Source: Bacteroidales bacterium
GTDB lineage: Bacteria > Bacteroidota > Bacteroidia > Bacteroidales > UBA932
Direction: 5' to 3'
Assembly (NCBI GenBank): GCA_017437755.1
Contig: JAFRXI010000006.1
Coordinates: 1 to 64,000, forward strand
Length of the DNA stretch: 64,000 nt
Notes under the pieces: generated by a model
What the model was told of the DNA's origin: nothing
Databases searched by the model: none
What the model saw: the letters and a program-made list of their open reading frames with translations, nothing else
Translations under genes and position numbers: made by a program
In this document: positions 34,120-42,042 of the stretch, in pieces
How positions within the stretch are numbered: the stretch's first letter is position 1
How the letters are laid out: every line of letters starts with the position of its first letter

Positions 34120-34995
34120 ATGGAAAGGCGCAAGATAAGGGATTGGAACCTCTTCCGGTCCTGGGCGTGGTATATGCCCGGGATCGGGGGGATGTTCGCC
34201 CTCCTGCTGCTTCTCATAGGCGGAATGCTCCTGGGAAGCATGGTCACCATAGCGGTATCGGCAATTTATTCACCGGAAGTGGCGCAGTCCTACGGAATGC
34301 TGGTCTCATATCCGCTGCAGTTCCTTCCGGCCATGGTCTTCGTCGGCTACAAGAGCCGGATGAACGCCCTGTTCGACGAGGGGGTCCCGCTTGACGATGA
34401 CAACTTCGGGAAATGGGGTGGCCTGGTGCTGGCCGTGGCCGCGATAATCGCCACCCTGGCCGCCCAGACGGTCTCCGACCTGGCCAACATGATCCTTCCT
34501 CCCCTTCCGGACATGCTCAAGAAACTGTTCGAGTCCATGACCGGAGGTCCGGTATGGGTGTCGCTCCTGCTGGTCAGCGTGTTCGCCCCCTTCTTCGAGG
34601 AGTGGCTGTGCCGGGGCGAGATACTCCGCGGACTGCTCCGGAAGATGAAACCGGCCTGGGCCATAATCATTTCGGCAGTTTTCTTCGCCCTTATCCACGG
34701 CAATCCCTGGCAGGCGATACCCGCATTCCTTTTGGGATGTATCTTTGGATATGTCTACTACCGCACGGGGTCGCTCAAACTGACCATGCTGATGCACTGC
34801 ACCAACAATACCCTGGCCGTGATTCTCGCCCATATCGACGGCATCAAGGATGCGGAATCCCTGATGGAGGTAATACCTCAGCCTTGGTATTCCGTCATCG
34901 TCGCTGTTTCCGTGGTGATTGTGGCAGCGTTCATACTGATGGTGTCCAGGATACCCCTTAAAGCATCCTCTCCTCTCCCAGCTCCCGGTGAGTGA
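34120..34995 (+). CDS. CPBP family intramembrane glutamic endopeptidase
   Basis: 291 residues with seven to eight membrane helices. CPBP motif 1 is FFEEWLCRGEILRG (EExxxR), motif 2 the histidine in FALIHGNPWQ, motif 3 HCTNNT. Relatives of the yeast Rce1 protease; in bacteria often of unknown substrate. The 3' end overlaps the convergent kinase-RapZ gene by 38 bp. Confidence 0.9.
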   Translation: MERRKIRDWNLFRSWAWYMPGIGGMFALLLLLIGGMLLGSMVTIAVSAIYSPEVAQSYGMLVSYPLQFLPAMVFVGYKSRMNALFDEGVPLDDDNFGKWGGLVLAVAAIIATLAAQTVSDLANMILPPLPDMLKKLFESMTGGPVWVSLLLVSVFAPFFEEWLCRGEILRGLLRKMKPAWAIIISAVFFALIHGNPWQAIPAFLLGCIFGYVYYRTGSLKLTMLMHCTNNTLAVILAHIDGIKDAESLMEVIPQPWYSVIVAVSVVIVAAFILMVSRIPLKASSPLPAPGE

Positions 34996-36382
34996 GGAGC
35001 ACCCTCACGTCAAAACGTCCGGCCAGCCGGGCTGCAAGATGCTCCGCGCAGTAAACTGAGCGGTGCTGTCCGCCCGTGCACCCGAAGCTGACCTGAAGAT
35101 TGGTGAACTTGCGCTCCATGAAGCGCTTGACATGGGCGTCCACAAGGGAGTAGACGTTGTCAAGGAAGGTCAGTATCTCGCCGTCGTCCTCCAGGAACTT
35201 TATCACCTCCGGGTCCTTTCCGTTGAACTGGCGGTAATACTCGTATTTGCCCGGATTGTTCACGCTGCGGCAGTCAAAGACGTAACCGCCGCCGTTCCCG
35301 GTGGGATCCGACGGTATTCCCTTCTTGAAGGCGAAGCTCCAGACATGCACCTGGAGGCGGTGGTCGGTGGCCGATGAATAGAACTGGGGCATCTCGGTGA
35401 GGGACTGCAGGACACCGGTGAGGTATGGATACCGGCCGAAAGGCTCCCTGAGAAGGCGCCTGAGGTTGTCCAGCGCATAGGGGACGCTGGCCATGAAATG
35501 CGGCTTCTTCTCAAAATAGCCGCGGAAGCCGTAGGCCCCAAGCACCTGGAGGGTGCGGAAAAGTATGAACAGCCTGAGCCTTTCCCTGAAAGACTCCCCG
35601 TCTATGTCCATGAATTCCTTCAGCGCATCCAGATAGGTCGACACCATCTTGTCCTTGAGGTCCTCGGGATAGCGCGAGCGGGCCTGCCACACAAAGGAAG
35701 CCACGTCGTACCAGATGGGACCGCGCCTACCGCCCTGGAAGTCGATGAAGTAGGGCTCGCCCTCGCAAAGCATCACGTTCCTGGCCTGGAAGTCCCTGTA
35801 CATGAATGTGTTGCCACATTCCTGCAGAAGGTCCTCCCTCAGAAGGTCAAAGTCGTCCTGGAGGAGCGTCTCGTCGAATTCCAGCCCGGTAGCCTTGAGG
35901 AAGCAGTATTTGAAATAGTTGAGGTCAAAGTTTATCATCCTCGCGTCGAACTCCCGCTGGGGGTAGCAGACGTCCCAGTCCAGGCCGTCGCCGCCGCGGA
36001 ACTGTATTGCGGGAAGGCGCGACATGGTCTTCAGCAGAAGGGCCTCCTCGTCGGGCGAATAGACCCCGCGTTCACGTCCCCTTGCCACGGCGTCGAACAG
36101 GCAAACCCTGCCGAGGTCGGTCTGCAGATAGCACATCCAGTCGTCCGACACCGCCAGGACTGCCGGAACGGTAAGGCCCTTGGACCGGAAATGGTTGCAG
36201 ATGGATATGAAAGCGCGGTTCTCCCTAACGTCGGTGCCGATAACGCCTATGATGGTACTGCCTTCGTCCCGGAAAAGCCGGAAATAACGCCTGTGACTGC
36301 CCGAGCCCGGCAGTTCCTCGTACCTCAGCGGGGCCTTCCCGACAAACTTCGTATACAGGTTTACAAGGGATTCTTCTGTCAT
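34958..36382 (-). CDS. Aminoglycoside-phosphotransferase-type kinase fused to RapZ C-terminal domain
   Basis: 474 residues from ATG 36382 (upstream in-frame codons are not credible). Residues about 1-330 are an APH-like kinase: Brenner-type loop FMYRDFQARNVML and metal-binding YFIDFQGGRRGP, as in AmgK sugar kinases. Residues about 345-474 match the C-terminal domain of RapZ, with the signature VSFGCTGGQHRSVYCAE and an N-terminal part around IKFLEDDGEILTF. The N-terminal P-loop ATPase of true RapZ is absent, replaced by the kinase. RapZ senses glucosamine-6-phosphate in E. coli; a sugar-recycling role here is inferred. Confidence 0.85.
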   Translation of the reverse strand: MTEESLVNLYTKFVGKAPLRYEELPGSGSHRRYFRLFRDEGSTIIGVIGTDVRENRAFISICNHFRSKGLTVPAVLAVSDDWMCYLQTDLGRVCLFDAVARGRERGVYSPDEEALLLKTMSRLPAIQFRGGDGLDWDVCYPQREFDARMINFDLNYFKYCFLKATGLEFDETLLQDDFDLLREDLLQECGNTFMYRDFQARNVMLCEGEPYFIDFQGGRRGPIWYDVASFVWQARSRYPEDLKDKMVSTYLDALKEFMDIDGESFRERLRLFILFRTLQVLGAYGFRGYFEKKPHFMASVPYALDNLRRLLREPFGRYPYLTGVLQSLTEMPQFYSSATDHRLQVHVWSFAFKKGIPSDPTGNGGGYVFDCRSVNNPGKYEYYRQFNGKDPEVIKFLEDDGEILTFLDNVYSLVDAHVKRFMERKFTNLQVSFGCTGGQHRSVYCAEHLAARLAGRFDVRVLLTHRELGEERML

Positions 36383-36399
36383 AAATGTCCAATTTGCCT

Positions 36400-36428
36400 C
36401 AAATTTACAAAAATTCTCACTATCTTGC
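36400..36428. promoter_or_regulatory. Divergent -7 elements for the kinase-RapZ gene and pncB
   Basis: Minus strand TAAATTTG (36407-36400) lies 17 bp before the kinase ATG. Plus strand TATCTTGC (36421-36428) lies 6 bp before the pncB ATG. No well-spaced -33 box for either. Confidence 0.4.
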
Positions 36429-36434
36429 GGGACT

Positions 36435-37940
36435 ATGGCAAAAATAAACAACGCATACTGCTCGGACAAGTACCAGTATACCATGGGAAAGTCCTACTTT
36501 GAATGCGGGATGGCCGAGCGCATCGCCGTATTCAACCTGTTCTACAGGAAGGCCCCTGAGAATAACAACTGGGCCGTGGTCAGCGGAACCGAGGAGATGA
36601 TAGACATGGTCCTCCACCTTGGGACCGAACCCGAGGAGTTCTATGAGAAATTCCTCCCGGGCGAGGAGTACAGGGAATTTCGCAAGTATCTGTCTATCAT
36701 GCGTTTCACCGGCGACGTGCACTGCATGAGGGAGGGCGAGATAGTATTTCCCAACCAGCCGATAGTCACGGTCGTGGCTCCCCTTGTCCAGGCTCAGGTC
36801 CTGGAAACGCCCATGCTCTGCATCCTGAACCACCAGATGGCCGTGGCCACCAAGGCATCCCGCGTGTGCCGCGCCACCAACCGGCCGGTCAGTGAATTCG
36901 GTTCCCGCAGGGCGCACGGTCCGTGGGCTGCTGTGATGGGTGGCAAAGCCGCCATGATCGCCGGCTGCGCCAGCTCCTCCAACATCCTCACCGGCGCCAT
37001 CAACGGGGTGCCTTCCACGGGGACCATGGCGCACAGCTTCGTAACTTCCTACGGCAGTTCGGTCAGCGGCGAGCACCAGGCCTTCTGCGATTACATAAAG
37101 ACCCATCGCGGGGAGAACATAATCCTCCTTATCGATACCTACGACACCCTCCGCTGCGGTGTCCTCAACGCCATCAAGGCCTTCAGGGAGAACGGGATAG
37201 ACGACAGCTATCCCTACGGATACGGCGTCCGCCTGGACAGCGGCGACCTCGCCTACCTCTCGCAGGAGGTCAGGGCCATCCTCGACGAGCACGGTCTCCT
37301 GGGATGCAAGATATTCGCGACCAACAGCCTGGACGAATACCTCATTTCCGACCTGGAGCGCCAGGGCGCCAGGATTGACAGCTACGGGGTGGGTGACGCC
37401 ATCGCCACATCCAAGGCCGCTCCCTGCTTCGGGAACGTGTACAAACTGGTCCAGATAGACGGTGAACCCGTCCTCAAGAGGTCGGAAGACAAGATAAAGC
37501 TCATCAACCCTGGATTCCAGATAACATGGAGGATTTCCGCCCGCGACACCTCCAAGAGCACCGAGATGGACGGTTATGTCTACAAAGCCGACGTCACCTG
37601 CCTCCGGGGCGACCGGCTGGACACTGCGATCCAGCATGGCATGGCCATCAGGATAAGGGACGAATACGACTCCTACAAGGAGATGTCCTTCGCCGAGGGC
37701 GAATACGTAGCCAGGCCGCTCCAGCATCAGGTTATCGCCAAGGGCGCCCGCTGCGTCCCCTTCCACGACCTCGCCCAGAAGAGGGCGTTCTACAAGGAGA
37801 CCCTCTCGCATTTCAGCCCGGCGGAAAGGCGCCTCATCAACCCCCACTACTACAAGGTGGACATATCCGACGACCTTTACGACAAGAAAATGGAGATCCT
37901 GGACTCGCTGGTAAAGGATATTTCCAATTTCAAGCTTTAG
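36435..37940 (+). CDS. pncB: Nicotinate phosphoribosyltransferase
   Basis: 501 residues. Makes nicotinate mononucleotide from nicotinate and PRPP in NAD salvage. Conserved blocks: NNAYCSDKYQYTMGKSYFE at the start, EFGSRRAHGPWAA, GTMAHSFVTSYG with the catalytic-histidine region, LLIDTYDTLRCGV and GVRLDSGDLAYLS. Length and order fit the bacterial NAPRTase family. The ATG stands 6 bp after the -7 box, so the message may lack a leader. Followed at 47 bp by the exported L7/L12-like gene. Confidence 0.94.
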   Translation: MAKINNAYCSDKYQYTMGKSYFECGMAERIAVFNLFYRKAPENNNWAVVSGTEEMIDMVLHLGTEPEEFYEKFLPGEEYREFRKYLSIMRFTGDVHCMREGEIVFPNQPIVTVVAPLVQAQVLETPMLCILNHQMAVATKASRVCRATNRPVSEFGSRRAHGPWAAVMGGKAAMIAGCASSSNILTGAINGVPSTGTMAHSFVTSYGSSVSGEHQAFCDYIKTHRGENIILLIDTYDTLRCGVLNAIKAFRENGIDDSYPYGYGVRLDSGDLAYLSQEVRAILDEHGLLGCKIFATNSLDEYLISDLERQGARIDSYGVGDAIATSKAAPCFGNVYKLVQIDGEPVLKRSEDKIKLINPGFQITWRISARDTSKSTEMDGYVYKADVTCLRGDRLDTAIQHGMAIRIRDEYDSYKEMSFAEGEYVARPLQHQVIAKGARCVPFHDLAQKRAFYKETLSHFSPAERRLINPHYYKVDISDDLYDKKMEILDSLVKDISNFKL

Positions 37941-37987: not shown

Positions 37988-38323
37988 ATGAAGAATATTT
38001 TGAGAATCGTGATTCCGTGCATCCTGCTCCTTACCGCGGCAGGCGCAACCGTGACGGCCTGGGGCCAGAACCCTTCCCCTGCCACCTCGGTTGAGGCTGC
38101 GGCGGACACCTGCACGGTGGTCCTGGTGGATTTTGGCCCCAACAAGGTCAAGGTCATCAAGATCGTCAAGGAGTACCTGGGGATAGGACTCAAGGAAGCG
38201 CATGACCTGGTAAACGCGGCCCCGTCTGTCATCAAGGAGAACGTTCCCATGAAAGAAGCCCGGGAACTCGCCGACAAGCTCACAGCCGCTGAAGCCAAGG
38301 TGGAACTGAAGACAAAGGAGTGA
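37988..38323 (+). CDS. Exported protein consisting of a ribosomal L7/L12 C-terminal-like domain
   Basis: 111 residues. Residues 1-26 are a signal peptide (MKNILRIVIPCILLLTAAGA, cleavage likely near TAWGQ). Residues about 42-108 follow the bL12 C-terminal domain closely: KVKVIKIVKEYLGIGLKEAH, DLVNAAPSVIKENV, ending AAEAKVELK. The bL12 N-terminal dimerization domain and hinge are missing. So a fold that binds translation factors on the ribosome appears here outside the cytoplasm. It lies between pncB and a large porin gene (11 bp gap). Function unknown; perhaps a small envelope protein-interaction module. Confidence 0.8.
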   Translation: MKNILRIVIPCILLLTAAGATVTAWGQNPSPATSVEAAADTCTVVLVDFGPNKVKVIKIVKEYLGIGLKEAHDLVNAAPSVIKENVPMKEARELADKLTAAEAKVELKTKE

Positions 38324-38334
38324 CATTCCCTTAG

Positions 38335-41076
38335 ATGAGGGGAGCGTGGCAGGAATTACTGTTGCCGGCAGCTGCCGTAGGGCTTGCTGTCGCGGGTCTG
38401 TGGGGCAGGTCCCCGCAGACGGTTTTTTCGTATTCCGCCGCGCGTGACATTCCGGCTGAGGTCCTCCGCCTGGACACACTCCGCACCGACACCCTTTCTT
38501 CCCTCCCCGCCGACACTACAACCCTGCCCGCTCTTCCGGACACGGCTGCCGTCCATTCCCCTGCCGACAGCCTGGAGGATGAGGGCTTCCTCTTTGGGGA
38601 ACAGGAAGACACAGTCCCCGCCATAATGGCCCGGGACACGATGAAAGTACCTGATTCCCTGAAGTTTACCGATCCATTCCTGTACAGGTGGTACGTAGCG
38701 GTCAAGGATTCCCTCACCCACCGGATAGTGGTTGATTCACTGAAGGCCGAGGGAGATTCGCTGGACTGGCCCAGGATCGACTCCCTCTACCTCGACGATT
38801 CCACCAGGACCGCAAAGCGCAAGTTCGACGAGTGGTACGCCTCCCTCGACCGCAAGGGCCGGAAGAAATACCACTACGAGCAGATGCTGCCCATAAAGAT
38901 GCACAGGATCGACAGCATCCTCAACCGGAAGGACAGCCTCAGGAAGGTAAAGGACAGCATCATAGAATCCACGCCCAGGATACTTGAAACCTTCGCCGTC
39001 CCGGATTCCATGCAGTACAGGAGGCTCATCTCGTGGAAGCAGGACCGCTATTTCGGGAAGGTCAGGCTTGAGGAATGGGACACCACCTTCAATTACCATT
39101 TCCGCGACTATCCGTTCCAGAGGGAGGACATAGGCGGATCCTGGCTGGGCATGGCCGGGTCGGCAGTCCAGACCTACGATTTCTTCAAGAGGCGCAGCGG
39201 TACCGGGGTCAGCTGGTACGACGCCTACGATTCCTGGACCTATACCCCCGAGAGCATCCCCATGTTCAACACCAAGACCCCGTACACGGAACTGGAATAC
39301 TACGGGACCCTCTTCGCCACGTCCATGAAGGAATCGGACAACATCCGGATAATGACCACCCAGAACATCCTGCCGTCGCTGAACTTCACCCTGGAGTACA
39401 AGAGATACGGCGGAGAAGGCATCCTGCAGAATGAGGCTACTGCCAACAAGACCCTGGCGGCAACTGTCAACTGGCTGGGCAAGAGACATTTGGTACATGC
39501 CGGATACATCTACAACAAGGTAACCAGGAAGGAAAACGGCGGAATCGTGGACAACAGATGGATCAGGGACACCACGGTGGACGCCAGGGAGATAAACGTC
39601 TGGCTGTCGGAAGCCTCCAACAAGATAAAGAAGAATACCGTATTCCTGGACCAGTCTTACAGGATCCCCTTCTCCTTCCTGAAGAAACTCGGCAAGAAAC
39701 ACAGGAAAGCCCAGGAGTCCGAAGAAGAAGGGATGCCGGAAGAGGAGTCCGGCGGGGAAACCGCCGCAAAGGACGATGACGACGACGTAACCACCGCATT
39801 CATAGGTCATTCCTCAGAGTATTCCTCCTTCAGCAAGCTTTATACCGACGCAATAGCCACCACCAACTCCTCGGGAAGCGAGTTCTTTGGCGGAGCATTC
39901 TACATGAATCCCCTGAAGAGCGCCGACTCGCTGAGGGTATCCAAACTCGACAACCGCATCTACTTCCGGCTCCAGCCATGGGTGGAAGACGGAATCGTGT
40001 CAAAGATAGAGGGCGGCGTGGGCGACCGGCTGCTGAGCCACTATATGATGCGCTCGCCCGGAGACTATATCAAGGTGCCTCGGAACACCGTCTGGAATTC
40101 GGCCTACGTATATGCCGGAGCGGAAGGCCGCCTGAAGAAATACATCAGCTGGAACGCCCTGGGAAGCTATACCTTCCTGGGTCACGACGTAAACGACTTT
40201 GACATCCAGGCAAACGCCGCGTTCAGCATCTACCCCTTCCGCAGGCACAAGGACAGTCCCATGACCATATCCGCCAGGTTCTCCACATCCCTCAAGGAAC
40301 CCGACTTCTTCCAGCAGAACTTCTATTCCAACCACTACCGGTGGAGCAACAGTTTCAGCAAGGTATCCACCACCGTCGTGGAGGGCAGGTTCTCGGTGCC
40401 GAGGTGGCGGCTGGATGTTGATGCAGGATACTCGCTGCTGGGTAATTACCTGTGGTACAACACCTTGGGCTCACCGGAACAGGCTTCTGCACCGGTGAGC
40501 GTGTTCAAGGCGTCGCTGAGGAAGGACTTCACCGTTGCCAGGTTGCTGCATCTTGACAACAGGGTGCTTTTCCAGAAATCCTCCGACGATTCGGTGCTGC
40601 CCCTTCCCCTCGTGGCAGTAAACCTCAGGTGGTACATCCAGTTCAACATAGTCAGCGCCGACGTGATGAAGATGCAGCTTGGCGCCGACGTCAGGTACAA
40701 TACCCCCTGGAACGCCCCGGCCTTCAATCCGGTGGCGGGTGTGTTCTTCGCCCAGGACAAGGAAAGGTACGGGAACTGCCCCATAATCGATGTCTTTGCC
40801 AACATCCAGTGGAAGAGGGCCTGCGTTTTCGTAAAGCTGGAGAATGCCGGAATGGGCTGGCCCATGACCAGGAAGGACTATTTCAGCGCACATAATTACA
40901 TTTCCACCACCCGCGCCGTCAAGTTTGGCATCTACTGGCCTTTCTACGTACAGTCGGGCAAGAAGAACACCCTCAGCAGCAAGGCCGGAAGCGGTGGCGG
41001 CAGAAGCGGAGGCGGCGGATTCGGTGGCCTGAGCGGCCTCAAGAGCGGCCTCGGAGGGGCAATGGGCGGATTCTGA
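38335..41076 (+). CDS. Large putative outer-membrane porin (Bacteroidetes Porin_10 type)
   Basis: 913 residues. Signal-like N-terminus, then an Asp/Ser/Pro-rich region (about 45-230) and a long beta-barrel from about 250, with segments such as YFGKVRLEEWDTTFNYHFRD and SYRIPFSFLKK that are typical of the family. An acidic insert (EEEGMPEEESGGETAAKDDD) lies near residues 462-483. The barrel seems to end at FGIYWPFYVQSGKK, but a Gly/Ser-rich tail of about 30 residues follows, ending in Phe. First of three closely spaced envelope genes. Confidence 0.78.
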   Translation: MRGAWQELLLPAAAVGLAVAGLWGRSPQTVFSYSAARDIPAEVLRLDTLRTDTLSSLPADTTTLPALPDTAAVHSPADSLEDEGFLFGEQEDTVPAIMARDTMKVPDSLKFTDPFLYRWYVAVKDSLTHRIVVDSLKAEGDSLDWPRIDSLYLDDSTRTAKRKFDEWYASLDRKGRKKYHYEQMLPIKMHRIDSILNRKDSLRKVKDSIIESTPRILETFAVPDSMQYRRLISWKQDRYFGKVRLEEWDTTFNYHFRDYPFQREDIGGSWLGMAGSAVQTYDFFKRRSGTGVSWYDAYDSWTYTPESIPMFNTKTPYTELEYYGTLFATSMKESDNIRIMTTQNILPSLNFTLEYKRYGGEGILQNEATANKTLAATVNWLGKRHLVHAGYIYNKVTRKENGGIVDNRWIRDTTVDAREINVWLSEASNKIKKNTVFLDQSYRIPFSFLKKLGKKHRKAQESEEEGMPEEESGGETAAKDDDDDVTTAFIGHSSEYSSFSKLYTDAIATTNSSGSEFFGGAFYMNPLKSADSLRVSKLDNRIYFRLQPWVEDGIVSKIEGGVGDRLLSHYMMRSPGDYIKVPRNTVWNSAYVYAGAEGRLKKYISWNALGSYTFLGHDVNDFDIQANAAFSIYPFRRHKDSPMTISARFSTSLKEPDFFQQNFYSNHYRWSNSFSKVSTTVVEGRFSVPRWRLDVDAGYSLLGNYLWYNTLGSPEQASAPVSVFKASLRKDFTVARLLHLDNRVLFQKSSDDSVLPLPLVAVNLRWYIQFNIVSADVMKMQLGADVRYNTPWNAPAFNPVAGVFFAQDKERYGNCPIIDVFANIQWKRACVFVKLENAGMGWPMTRKDYFSAHNYISTTRAVKFGIYWPFYVQSGKKNTLSSKAGSGGGRSGGGGFGGLSGLKSGLGGAMGGF

Positions 41077-41082
41077 CAGGGA

Positions 41083-42042
41083 ATGAAAAGCCTGTACGGC
41101 ATATGGACCTTCATCATTTATCTGCTGTGCACTGTTGCGGCCCTGTTTGTCGTGCCTTTCCAGCAGAGGGATTCCCTGGTCCGTATCAATCCCCTGGACC
41201 ACGACAAGCATACCCTTGAATGCGCTATCCGGCCAGGTGACGACTTCAACTATATCTTTCTCGGAAAATTCTCCTCGGACCTCGGGCTCGAGTGCAGGAT
41301 AAACCGCTCCGCGGACGATATCCTGGACTCGCTCAGGAGCGGTGCGCTGGACCTTGCCGCCCTGGGGGAAAGCGTCCTGGAATCAGGCCTCGGCGACAGC
41401 CTGGTGGCCTCCCGCCGGTTTGGCGACAGCACGGTATGGGTATTCCGGGAAGGCCCGGTGGAAAGGCTCCGCTTCCTCAATTCGTGGCTCACCGCCACTG
41501 AAAGGTCACGCTATTACGGCAGGGTGGCAAGGTCGCTCCGGCACAGGAAAGGCGACCCCGGCCAGATCAGCCCATACGACTCCCTGATAAAGGTCTACGC
41601 CTCCAGGATGGGCTGGGACTGGCGGCTGCTGGCATCGGTAATCTACCATGAATCAAGGTTTTCCATGAGCGCCGCATCCAACCGCGGGGCCATAGGGCTG
41701 ATGCAGGTGGTACCCAACCACTACAGCGCCGACTCCCTCATGGACCCTTCCACCAACCTTCAGGCCGGGACCAACTACCTGCTTAAGCTGGAGAACATGT
41801 TCCGCAGCAGCAGCGCCGACTCCCTGGAATGCGTCAAATTCGCCGTTGCCGCCTACAACGCAGGCGAAGGAAGGATAAAGAACTGCCTTAAATTCGCCTT
41901 GGAAAAGAACGTGGACGCCACCAAGTGGGACAACGTGGTGGAACTCTTCCCTGAGATGGAAGATTTTGACGGCAGGCAGACCGCCGCCTACGTCGACGGG
42001 GTCATAAGCACCTGGTACGCCTATATGATGCAATACAACTAG
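41083..42042 (+). CDS. Membrane-anchored lytic transglycosylase with shortened sensor domain (MltF-like)
   Basis: 319 residues. One N-terminal membrane segment (about 7-26), then about 100 residues that look like part of a solute-binding domain (DFNYIFLGKFSSDLGLECRI, SGALDLAALGESV), then an SLT domain from about 165: catalytic E190 in VIYHESRF, GAIGLMQVVP, DPSTNLQAGTNYL and AAYNAGEGRI. Cleaves peptidoglycan glycan strands. Typical MltF has a full two-lobed binding domain and about 450-500 residues; here one lobe appears lost. Six bp after the porin, 3 bp before the GDPD gene. Confidence 0.85.
   Translation: MKSLYGIWTFIIYLLCTVAALFVVPFQQRDSLVRINPLDHDKHTLECAIRPGDDFNYIFLGKFSSDLGLECRINRSADDILDSLRSGALDLAALGESVLESGLGDSLVASRRFGDSTVWVFREGPVERLRFLNSWLTATERSRYYGRVARSLRHRKGDPGQISPYDSLIKVYASRMGWDWRLLASVIYHESRFSMSAASNRGAIGLMQVVPNHYSADSLMDPSTNLQAGTNYLLKLENMFRSSSADSLECVKFAVAAYNAGEGRIKNCLKFALEKNVDATKWDNVVELFPEMEDFDGRQTAAYVDGVISTWYAYMMQYN

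Follow-up and report, generated by a model that had tools for sequence, protein, structure and literature searches.

What is the docking domain of a ribosomal protein doing behind what resembles an export signal? The protein bL12 is near-universal in bacterial ribosomes and has a C-terminal domain dedicated to translation-factor docking. In the 64,000-nucleotide stretch of DNA analyzed here (the window; its genome is G000), a short gene combines this domain with a start that resembles a signal peptide. The first-pass annotation of the window had proposed that this was a translation-factor-binding fold in the envelope, next to a porin, and hence a re-used protein-binding module. We investigated whether the gene is real, whether its product looks exported and what the domain might bind. 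We refer to the gene as secL12, a name coined here, and to its product as SecL12.

SecL12 has a bL12 C-terminal domain but is not bL12

The secL12 gene (37988..38323, plus strand) encodes a protein of 111 amino acids with a signal-like start and a bL12 C-terminal domain. This assignment is based on the open reading frame, on the match to PF00542 and on 12 homologues of the same design. In a Pfam scan, PF00542 (Ribosomal_L12) matched residues 43 to 108 of the window protein (38114..38311, plus strand) over positions 2 to 67 of the 67 profile positions, with an E value of 1.3e-21 and a score of 77.1 bits against a gathering cutoff of 25.9. It was the sole match at an E value of 0.001, the ClpS family giving none. 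The Pfam scan returned no match to the dimerization domain PF16320 in the window protein, whereas a canonical bL12 of the same genus, which served as a positive control, matched PF16320 at 47.9 bits. The lack of the dimerization domain, noted in the first reading, was thus confirmed, and this domain was absent from both of the SecL12 members that were put through Pfam (n = 2). Moreover, TIGR00855, the equivalog model of true bL12, scored the window protein at 68.8, below its cutoff of 84.4. Since PF00542 is present, PF16320 is absent and TIGR00855 remains under its cutoff, SecL12 has the domain yet is not bL12.

The window protein was modeled with AlphaFold2, with 12 aligned family members as input. 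In this model, residues 41 to 109 form a strand-helix-helix-strand-helix-strand fold, with pLDDT values of 84 to 91 in blocks over residues 41 to 110. The whole-chain pLDDT was 72.8 because the signal and the linker (residues 27 to 42; 38066..38113, plus strand) score low, with values of <50 at residues 27 to 37. When the model was compared with solved structures using Foldseek, bL12 ranked first (1dd3_A, E value of 2e-6), and the bL12 C-terminal domain 1ctf was superimposed on the model of the window member with a TM score of 0.95 by target and an rmsd of 0.8 Å. The runners-up were ClpS entries (9ayn, 9ayo, 1lzw and others), at 9 to 18% identity, and one malarial protein. A profile search of PDB sequences with the 12 members retrieved 18 distinct sequences, all of them named L7/L12, bL12 or mitochondrial L12. 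Structure prediction, which had been suggested as a check, thus agreed with the Pfam match in assigning the bL12 C-terminal domain, and the fold and architecture of SecL12 are well supported by computation.

The N terminus resembles a Sec/SPI signal peptide

The N termini were compared using a simple rule that requires a basic n-region, 11 residues with a mean hydropathy of at least 2.0 and then a small-x-small site. Under this rule, which is our own rather than SignalP and whose thresholds were fixed after the family had been seen, all 13 SecL12 members passed versus 0 of 84 canonical bL12 proteins, the latter being those in fetched loci picked by a text pattern for ordinary bL12. A single canonical bL12 protein reached the hydropathy threshold taken alone (2.14). 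By this simple rule, SecL12 therefore shows the n-region, h-region and SPI-type site of a Sec/SPI substrate, and it departs from true bL12, which is cytoplasmic and has no export signal.

In the window protein, the predicted signal peptide comprises residues 1 to 26 (37988..38065, plus strand), with a likely cleavage site at AWG/Q27. This site fits the Q-rule, according to which SPI cleavage in Bacteroidetes typically leaves a Q at the new N terminus (PMC5837995, consulted in part). A Q was absent after the candidate cleavage sites listed for the other members, so the Q-rule supports the window member alone. The N terminus of SecL12 thus looks like a Sec/SPI signal, as had been claimed for the window protein, and export is predicted.

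SecL12 is so far known from part of one genus

When the window protein was used as a single-sequence query against 400 genomes of the genus, full-length homologues with signal-like starts of their own were obtained from 11 other genomes. Nine members were taken directly from the ten best places of this search, and those of G339, G135 and G185 were chosen by reading their N termini; G339 was already among the ten best places, and the other two ranked lower. A profile of the resulting 12 members found these 12 again at 105.4 to 153.6 bits, ahead of the best canonical bL12 at 86.7, a lead that exists by construction since the profile was built from them. The only new member from the profile search was that of G222, a 90-residue open reading frame with a score of 87.1 bits that was recognized by reading the frame. 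SecL12 is thus present in at least 13 of the 400 genomes, G000 included. This count is a floor, as many of the genomes are incomplete and short members such as that of G222 score like ordinary bL12. The search for the same signal-plus-domain architecture, proposed at the outset, therefore located it in 12 further genomes, and the genus can do without SecL12, since the protein is known from only 13 of the 400.

Apart from the window genome, no SecL12 stood out in a profile search of 393 genomes of the order and 198 genomes of the phylum, in which the next-best scores were 86.4 and 92.0 bits, respectively; these two samples were judged by score and by fetched loci rather than by reading match by match. 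A scan of genome contigs gave 11 loci, all of which were read as ordinary bL12 of 121 to 141 amino acids. With tblastn, 59 plasmid and 16 phage records were obtained, all of them at <60% identity and with <80% coverage of the query. Four L12-domain proteins were present in viral contigs (L214 to L217), none with a signal-like start by reading. The one in L217, at 86 amino acids, extends barely beyond the L12 domain and is without a dimerization-domain match, and the match in L215 was sub-threshold only. The open-licence part of PubMed Central, where the slash in "L7/L12" makes that spelling unsearchable, yielded no description of an exported bL12 domain, so that absence from print is not established. 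SecL12 is a real and selected variant of the bL12 C-terminal domain that, within what was searched, appears to be undescribed.

The searches also returned L12 domains in other settings. In G396 (L150:1498-2370, minus strand) and G184 (L152:1498-2391, minus strand), rplJ and rplL form one open frame of 290 and 297 amino acids, respectively. In these apparent uL10-bL12 fusions there is no intervening stop and the junctions differ; an assembly error is possible. In the related loci L004, L008 and L019, rplJ and rplL are separate. A protein of 1,071 amino acids in G232 (L179:4144-7359, minus strand) has LRR_5 and Flg_new_2 matches, followed by a hydrophobic segment recognized by reading, an fn3 domain and a terminal L12 domain, which may face the periplasm. 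G052 encodes a protein of about 800 amino acids (L089:9349-11736, plus strand) with an L12 C-terminal domain near residues 76 to 140 and no other Pfam match, and L12-bearing frames that resemble it, also of about 800 amino acids, are found in G292 (L167) and G100 (L169). Finally, a protein of 265 amino acids in G246 (L180:2528-3325, plus strand) has the L12 domain at its C-terminal end, and its gene adjoins that of a DUF2589 protein.

SecL12 has a single origin and is under purifying selection

For the tree and for the residue counts given below, we kept 99 canonical domains, 13 SecL12 domains and 3 fused domains, and we dropped duplicates and domains with <55 aligned profile positions. In the tree (115 domains, 66 columns), whose bootstrap was not fully settled, the 13 SecL12 domains formed one clade with an ultrafast bootstrap value of 96 and an SH-aLRT value of 96. 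SecL12 was placed nearer to the bL12 of other groups than to the bL12 of its own genus, and the latter was thus rejected as the closest parent. Transfer is not claimed because the columns are few and the branches are long.

We estimated dN/dS for nine pairs of secL12 genes. Values of 0.13 to 0.18 were obtained for the four pairs with a dS of <2, namely, the three pairs among G316, G241 and G216 and the pair G060-G016; the other five gave a dS of >2 or no value. SecL12 thus has a single origin and is under purifying selection in the measurable pairs, as expected of the re-used module that had been postulated. An artifactual frame was ruled out by the low dN/dS in these pairs and by frames that are open in all 13 members. 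The gene might still be a stray duplicate without present use, which would be in keeping with its rarity (13 of 400) and its occurrence in several genomic places. However, such a neutral passenger would hardly show these dN/dS values or keep its frame open in 13 of 13 cases despite the low identity of the 11 other aligned SecL12 proteins to the window member (32 to 50%), and we consider this explanation very unlikely.

One half of the factor-binding face is kept and the other is altered

We take the first and second helices of the domain to be helices 4 and 5 of bL12 and position 72 to be the helix-5 lysine; the residue and helix numbers of Escherichia coli bL12 and the names of its factor-binding residues are used on the same assumption. 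Eleven residues (L46, G50, K53, V56, K58, L64, L68, P79, L98, A103 and E106) are kept in all 13 SecL12 members, and position 61 is basic in all of them. In the AlphaFold2 model, the first helix spans residues 53 to 64 (38144..38179, plus strand), and column counts place K53, K58 and the basic residue 61 in it throughout the family. The second helix spans residues 68 to 76 (38189..38215, plus strand), and here H72 replaces the canonical lysine. Indeed, Lys at position 72 is found in 99 of 99 canonical domains versus 1 of 13 SecL12 domains, which have His (5), Tyr (5) or Phe (2) instead. Similarly, Asp at position 76 is present in 98 of 99 canonical domains versus 1 of 13 SecL12 domains, and Lys at position 95 in 94 of 99 versus 3 of 13.

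In bL12, factors bind to helices 4 and 5, at a patch described as conserved and positively charged (PMC6753160, consulted in part). At the sequence level, SecL12 keeps the helix-4 portion of these GTPase-binding helices and has lost the helix-5 lysine in 12 of 13 members. The description of the fold as translation-factor binding thus applies to the parent domain. In SecL12, helix 4 of the binding face is retained, but with the helix-5 lysine replaced in all but one of the 13 members, the partner may well differ from that of bL12. Judged by these residues, SecL12 would retain the binding face and offer it to a new partner. SecL12 is a small, testable protein, and the changed residues of its 13 natural variants point to a possible new interface.

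Nine of nine secL12 genomes tested also encode an ordinary bL12

In the profile search, 9 of the 13 genomes with SecL12 contained a second L12 match. All nine of these had one PF16320 match each, in a frame of 125 to 130 amino acids located away from secL12. No second L12 match was obtained in G000, G060, G222 and G280, whose completeness is 84.9%, 72%, 68% and 79%, respectively. In the G000 assembly, neither uL10 nor an ordinary bL12 was found besides secL12; the region encoding the two is most likely missing from this incomplete assembly. We thus rejected the window gene as the sole or true bL12 of its genome, given the incompleteness of G000 and the ordinary bL12 held by 9 of the 9 other secL12 genomes tested. 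Since an ordinary bL12 was present in 9 of 9, SecL12 most likely adds to bL12 rather than replacing it.

These data also bear on whether SecL12 has remained on the ribosome or in the cytoplasm, with its hydrophobic start unused, or bypassed in a shorter form with an internal start, and its domain working with translation factors. The retained helix-4 residues of the parent domain would be consistent with this, helices 4 and 5 being the factor site of bL12 (PMC6753160, in the part consulted). Against it stand the signal-like start (13 of 13 versus 0 of 84 canonical proteins), the missing dimerization domain in both members put through Pfam and the additional, ordinary bL12 in all nine genomes tested. 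We therefore regard a cytoplasmic role as distinctly unlikely.

The gene neighborhood varies between genomes

In the window, secL12 lies 47 bp downstream of pncB, which encodes a nicotinate phosphoribosyltransferase (36435..37940, plus strand; PF17767/PF17956, TIGR01513). A gene for a putative porin (Porin_10; 38335..41076, plus strand; PF14121, 429.9 bits) follows after an 11-bp gap, and next on the same strand is a gene for an SLT transglycosylase-domain protein (41083..42042, plus strand; PF01464). Divergent to pncB is a gene for an APH-type kinase with a RapZ C-terminal domain (34958..36484, minus strand; PF01636, PF22740). This kinase/RapZ fusion adjoins pncB in several genomes, mostly in divergent orientation.

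At 6 of the 13 loci (G000, G273, G280, G067, G339 and G135), secL12 comes directly after pncB. In G013 (L195), the porin gene lies within about 90 bp downstream of pncB without secL12 between them, which makes this locus an empty site. In the other loci, the surroundings are different (the names pncA, pcrA, susC and prfB were read from Pfam matches to isochorismatase, UvrD helicase, TonB-receptor plug and RF-1/PCRF, respectively). In G016 and G060, secL12 comes after a susC-susD-lipoprotein-like run and before pncA (isochorismatase family) and pcrA (UvrD-type helicase). In G316, G241 and G216, it comes after a divIC-family gene and shares a 4-base overlap with the next gene, which encodes a YkuD-family L,D-transpeptidase (71.4 bits to YkuD in G316) and is followed by a release-factor gene (prfB). 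In G185, secL12 comes after resB-ccsA, and in G222, its end overlaps the chosen start of a 5'-nucleotidase gene.

The proximity to a porin that had been noted in the first-pass annotation is therefore true of the window (11 bp) but is not a rule. Only in the window are the two genes directly adjacent; each of the other 12 loci has a different gene immediately downstream, and the porin gene lies farther downstream of secL12 in G273, G339 and G067. The anticipated synteny was thus not borne out, and the porin was ruled out as a conserved partner.

L,D-transpeptidase genes were found, at an E value of 1e-15, in 8 of 13 genomes with secL12 versus 78 of 387 without it (Fisher P = 0.0017). At a strict E value of 1e-60, the proportions were 6 of 13 versus 7 of 387 (P = 5e-7). 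Kinship explains this co-occurrence at least in part. As kinship confounds the counts and the transpeptidase-release factor pair exists without secL12, the enzyme was rejected as an established partner and is a lead only. As an observation in its own right, an L,D-transpeptidase gene stands directly before a release-factor gene in 10 of 18 loci examined, with or without secL12 (L218 to L226 and L231).

Several neighbors of secL12 have envelope-acting products. Since the neighbors vary and include cytoplasmic enzymes (pncB, the isochorismatase-family protein and the UvrD-type helicase), the context names no partner. Cell-wall or other envelope enzymes would be the first candidates, given the 4-base overlap with the L,D-transpeptidase gene in three genomes. 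Some of these loci would also suit a SecL12 that is tethered by an uncleaved N-terminal anchor, with its domain facing the periplasm and scaffolding an inner-membrane complex. DivIC-family and cytochrome-c-assembly gene products are membrane proteins, and such genes lie upstream of secL12 in three genomes and in one genome, respectively; moreover, the terminal L12 domain of the large G232 protein is preceded by a hydrophobic segment and an fn3 domain. However, all 13 members have a small-x-small site after the hydrophobic stretch, and the site in the window protein fits the Q-rule too, which makes permanent tethering improbable.

A probable re-used stalk domain and its parallels

Taken together, SecL12 probably represents a single re-use of the bL12 C-terminal domain, as a small binding module outside the cytoplasm. 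Under this reading, the family would go back to one detachment of the domain from the ribosome; the domain would have acquired a Sec signal peptide and would have been kept as a small module, most likely in the periplasm. The signal would be used and cleaved, and the protein would fold outside the cytoplasm. There, SecL12 would bind an envelope protein via its helix 4/5 face, of which the helix-4 half appears conserved and the helix-5 half re-tooled (Lys to His, Tyr or Phe). If this is true, the exported family means that a docking face can be adapted to an extracytoplasmic partner, in a place in which translation factors are not expected.

The closest known relative in fold is the bL12 C-terminal domain itself (PF00542; 1ctf). 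SecL12 has nearly the whole domain, the same fold and the basic residues of helix 4. It differs from bL12 in having a signal-like start in place of the dimerization domain, in its altered helix-5 lysine and other canonical positions and in its location outside the rplJ-rplL context. In the passages found on bL12, a 2024 review of extra-ribosomal roles deals with the factor-binding stalk, the complex with uL10 and autoregulation, and the term "signal peptide" does not occur in its main text (PMC10931766).

Phages also re-use bL12 domains outside ribosomal operons, either free or within larger proteins, and the part of the report consulted proposes that these proteins act on host ribosomes and makes no mention of an export signal (PMC6375957). 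In contrast to these genes, secL12 is chromosomal and, by prediction, signal bearing.

The next known fold to the SecL12 model in Foldseek, after bL12, was that of ClpS. As a small substrate-binding adaptor, ClpS may offer a comparison of how SecL12 works, and of no more than that: its identity is 9 to 18%, it is cytoplasmic and its sequence family gave no match.

BfUbb is a secreted ubiquitin of Bacteroides fragilis, with a mature form of 76 amino acids and an SPI signal, that acts against related strains (PMC5705921 and PMC3352274, both consulted in part). Like SecL12, it combines a conserved cytoplasmic fold with a signal peptide, is small and occurs in some strains only. By this analogy, the mature SecL12 of about 85 amino acids might leave the cell and hit competitors as an antagonist or mimic; it shares the small size, the signal-like start and the patchy occurrence (at least 13 of the 400 genomes), and BfUbb is toxic to kin. 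We find this unlikely, as no recurring immunity-like gene was seen beside secL12 in an unsystematic look at the loci, many neighbors are ordinary genes in an order also found without secL12 and the loss of the helix-5 lysine in 12 of 13 members is unlike the needs of a faithful bL12 mimic. A broader version, in which the stalk domain has turned into a secreted or periplasmic effector, be it a BfUbb-like antagonist or an envelope adaptor that uses the factor-binding face of bL12, seems somewhat less unlikely to us, if still doubtful. The folds of the two proteins differ, and the toxicity of BfUbb is demonstrated, whereas that of SecL12 would be hypothetical. As an analogy, BfUbb is the nearest parallel in logic to SecL12, a conserved cytoplasmic fold that would have been put to use behind a signal peptide.
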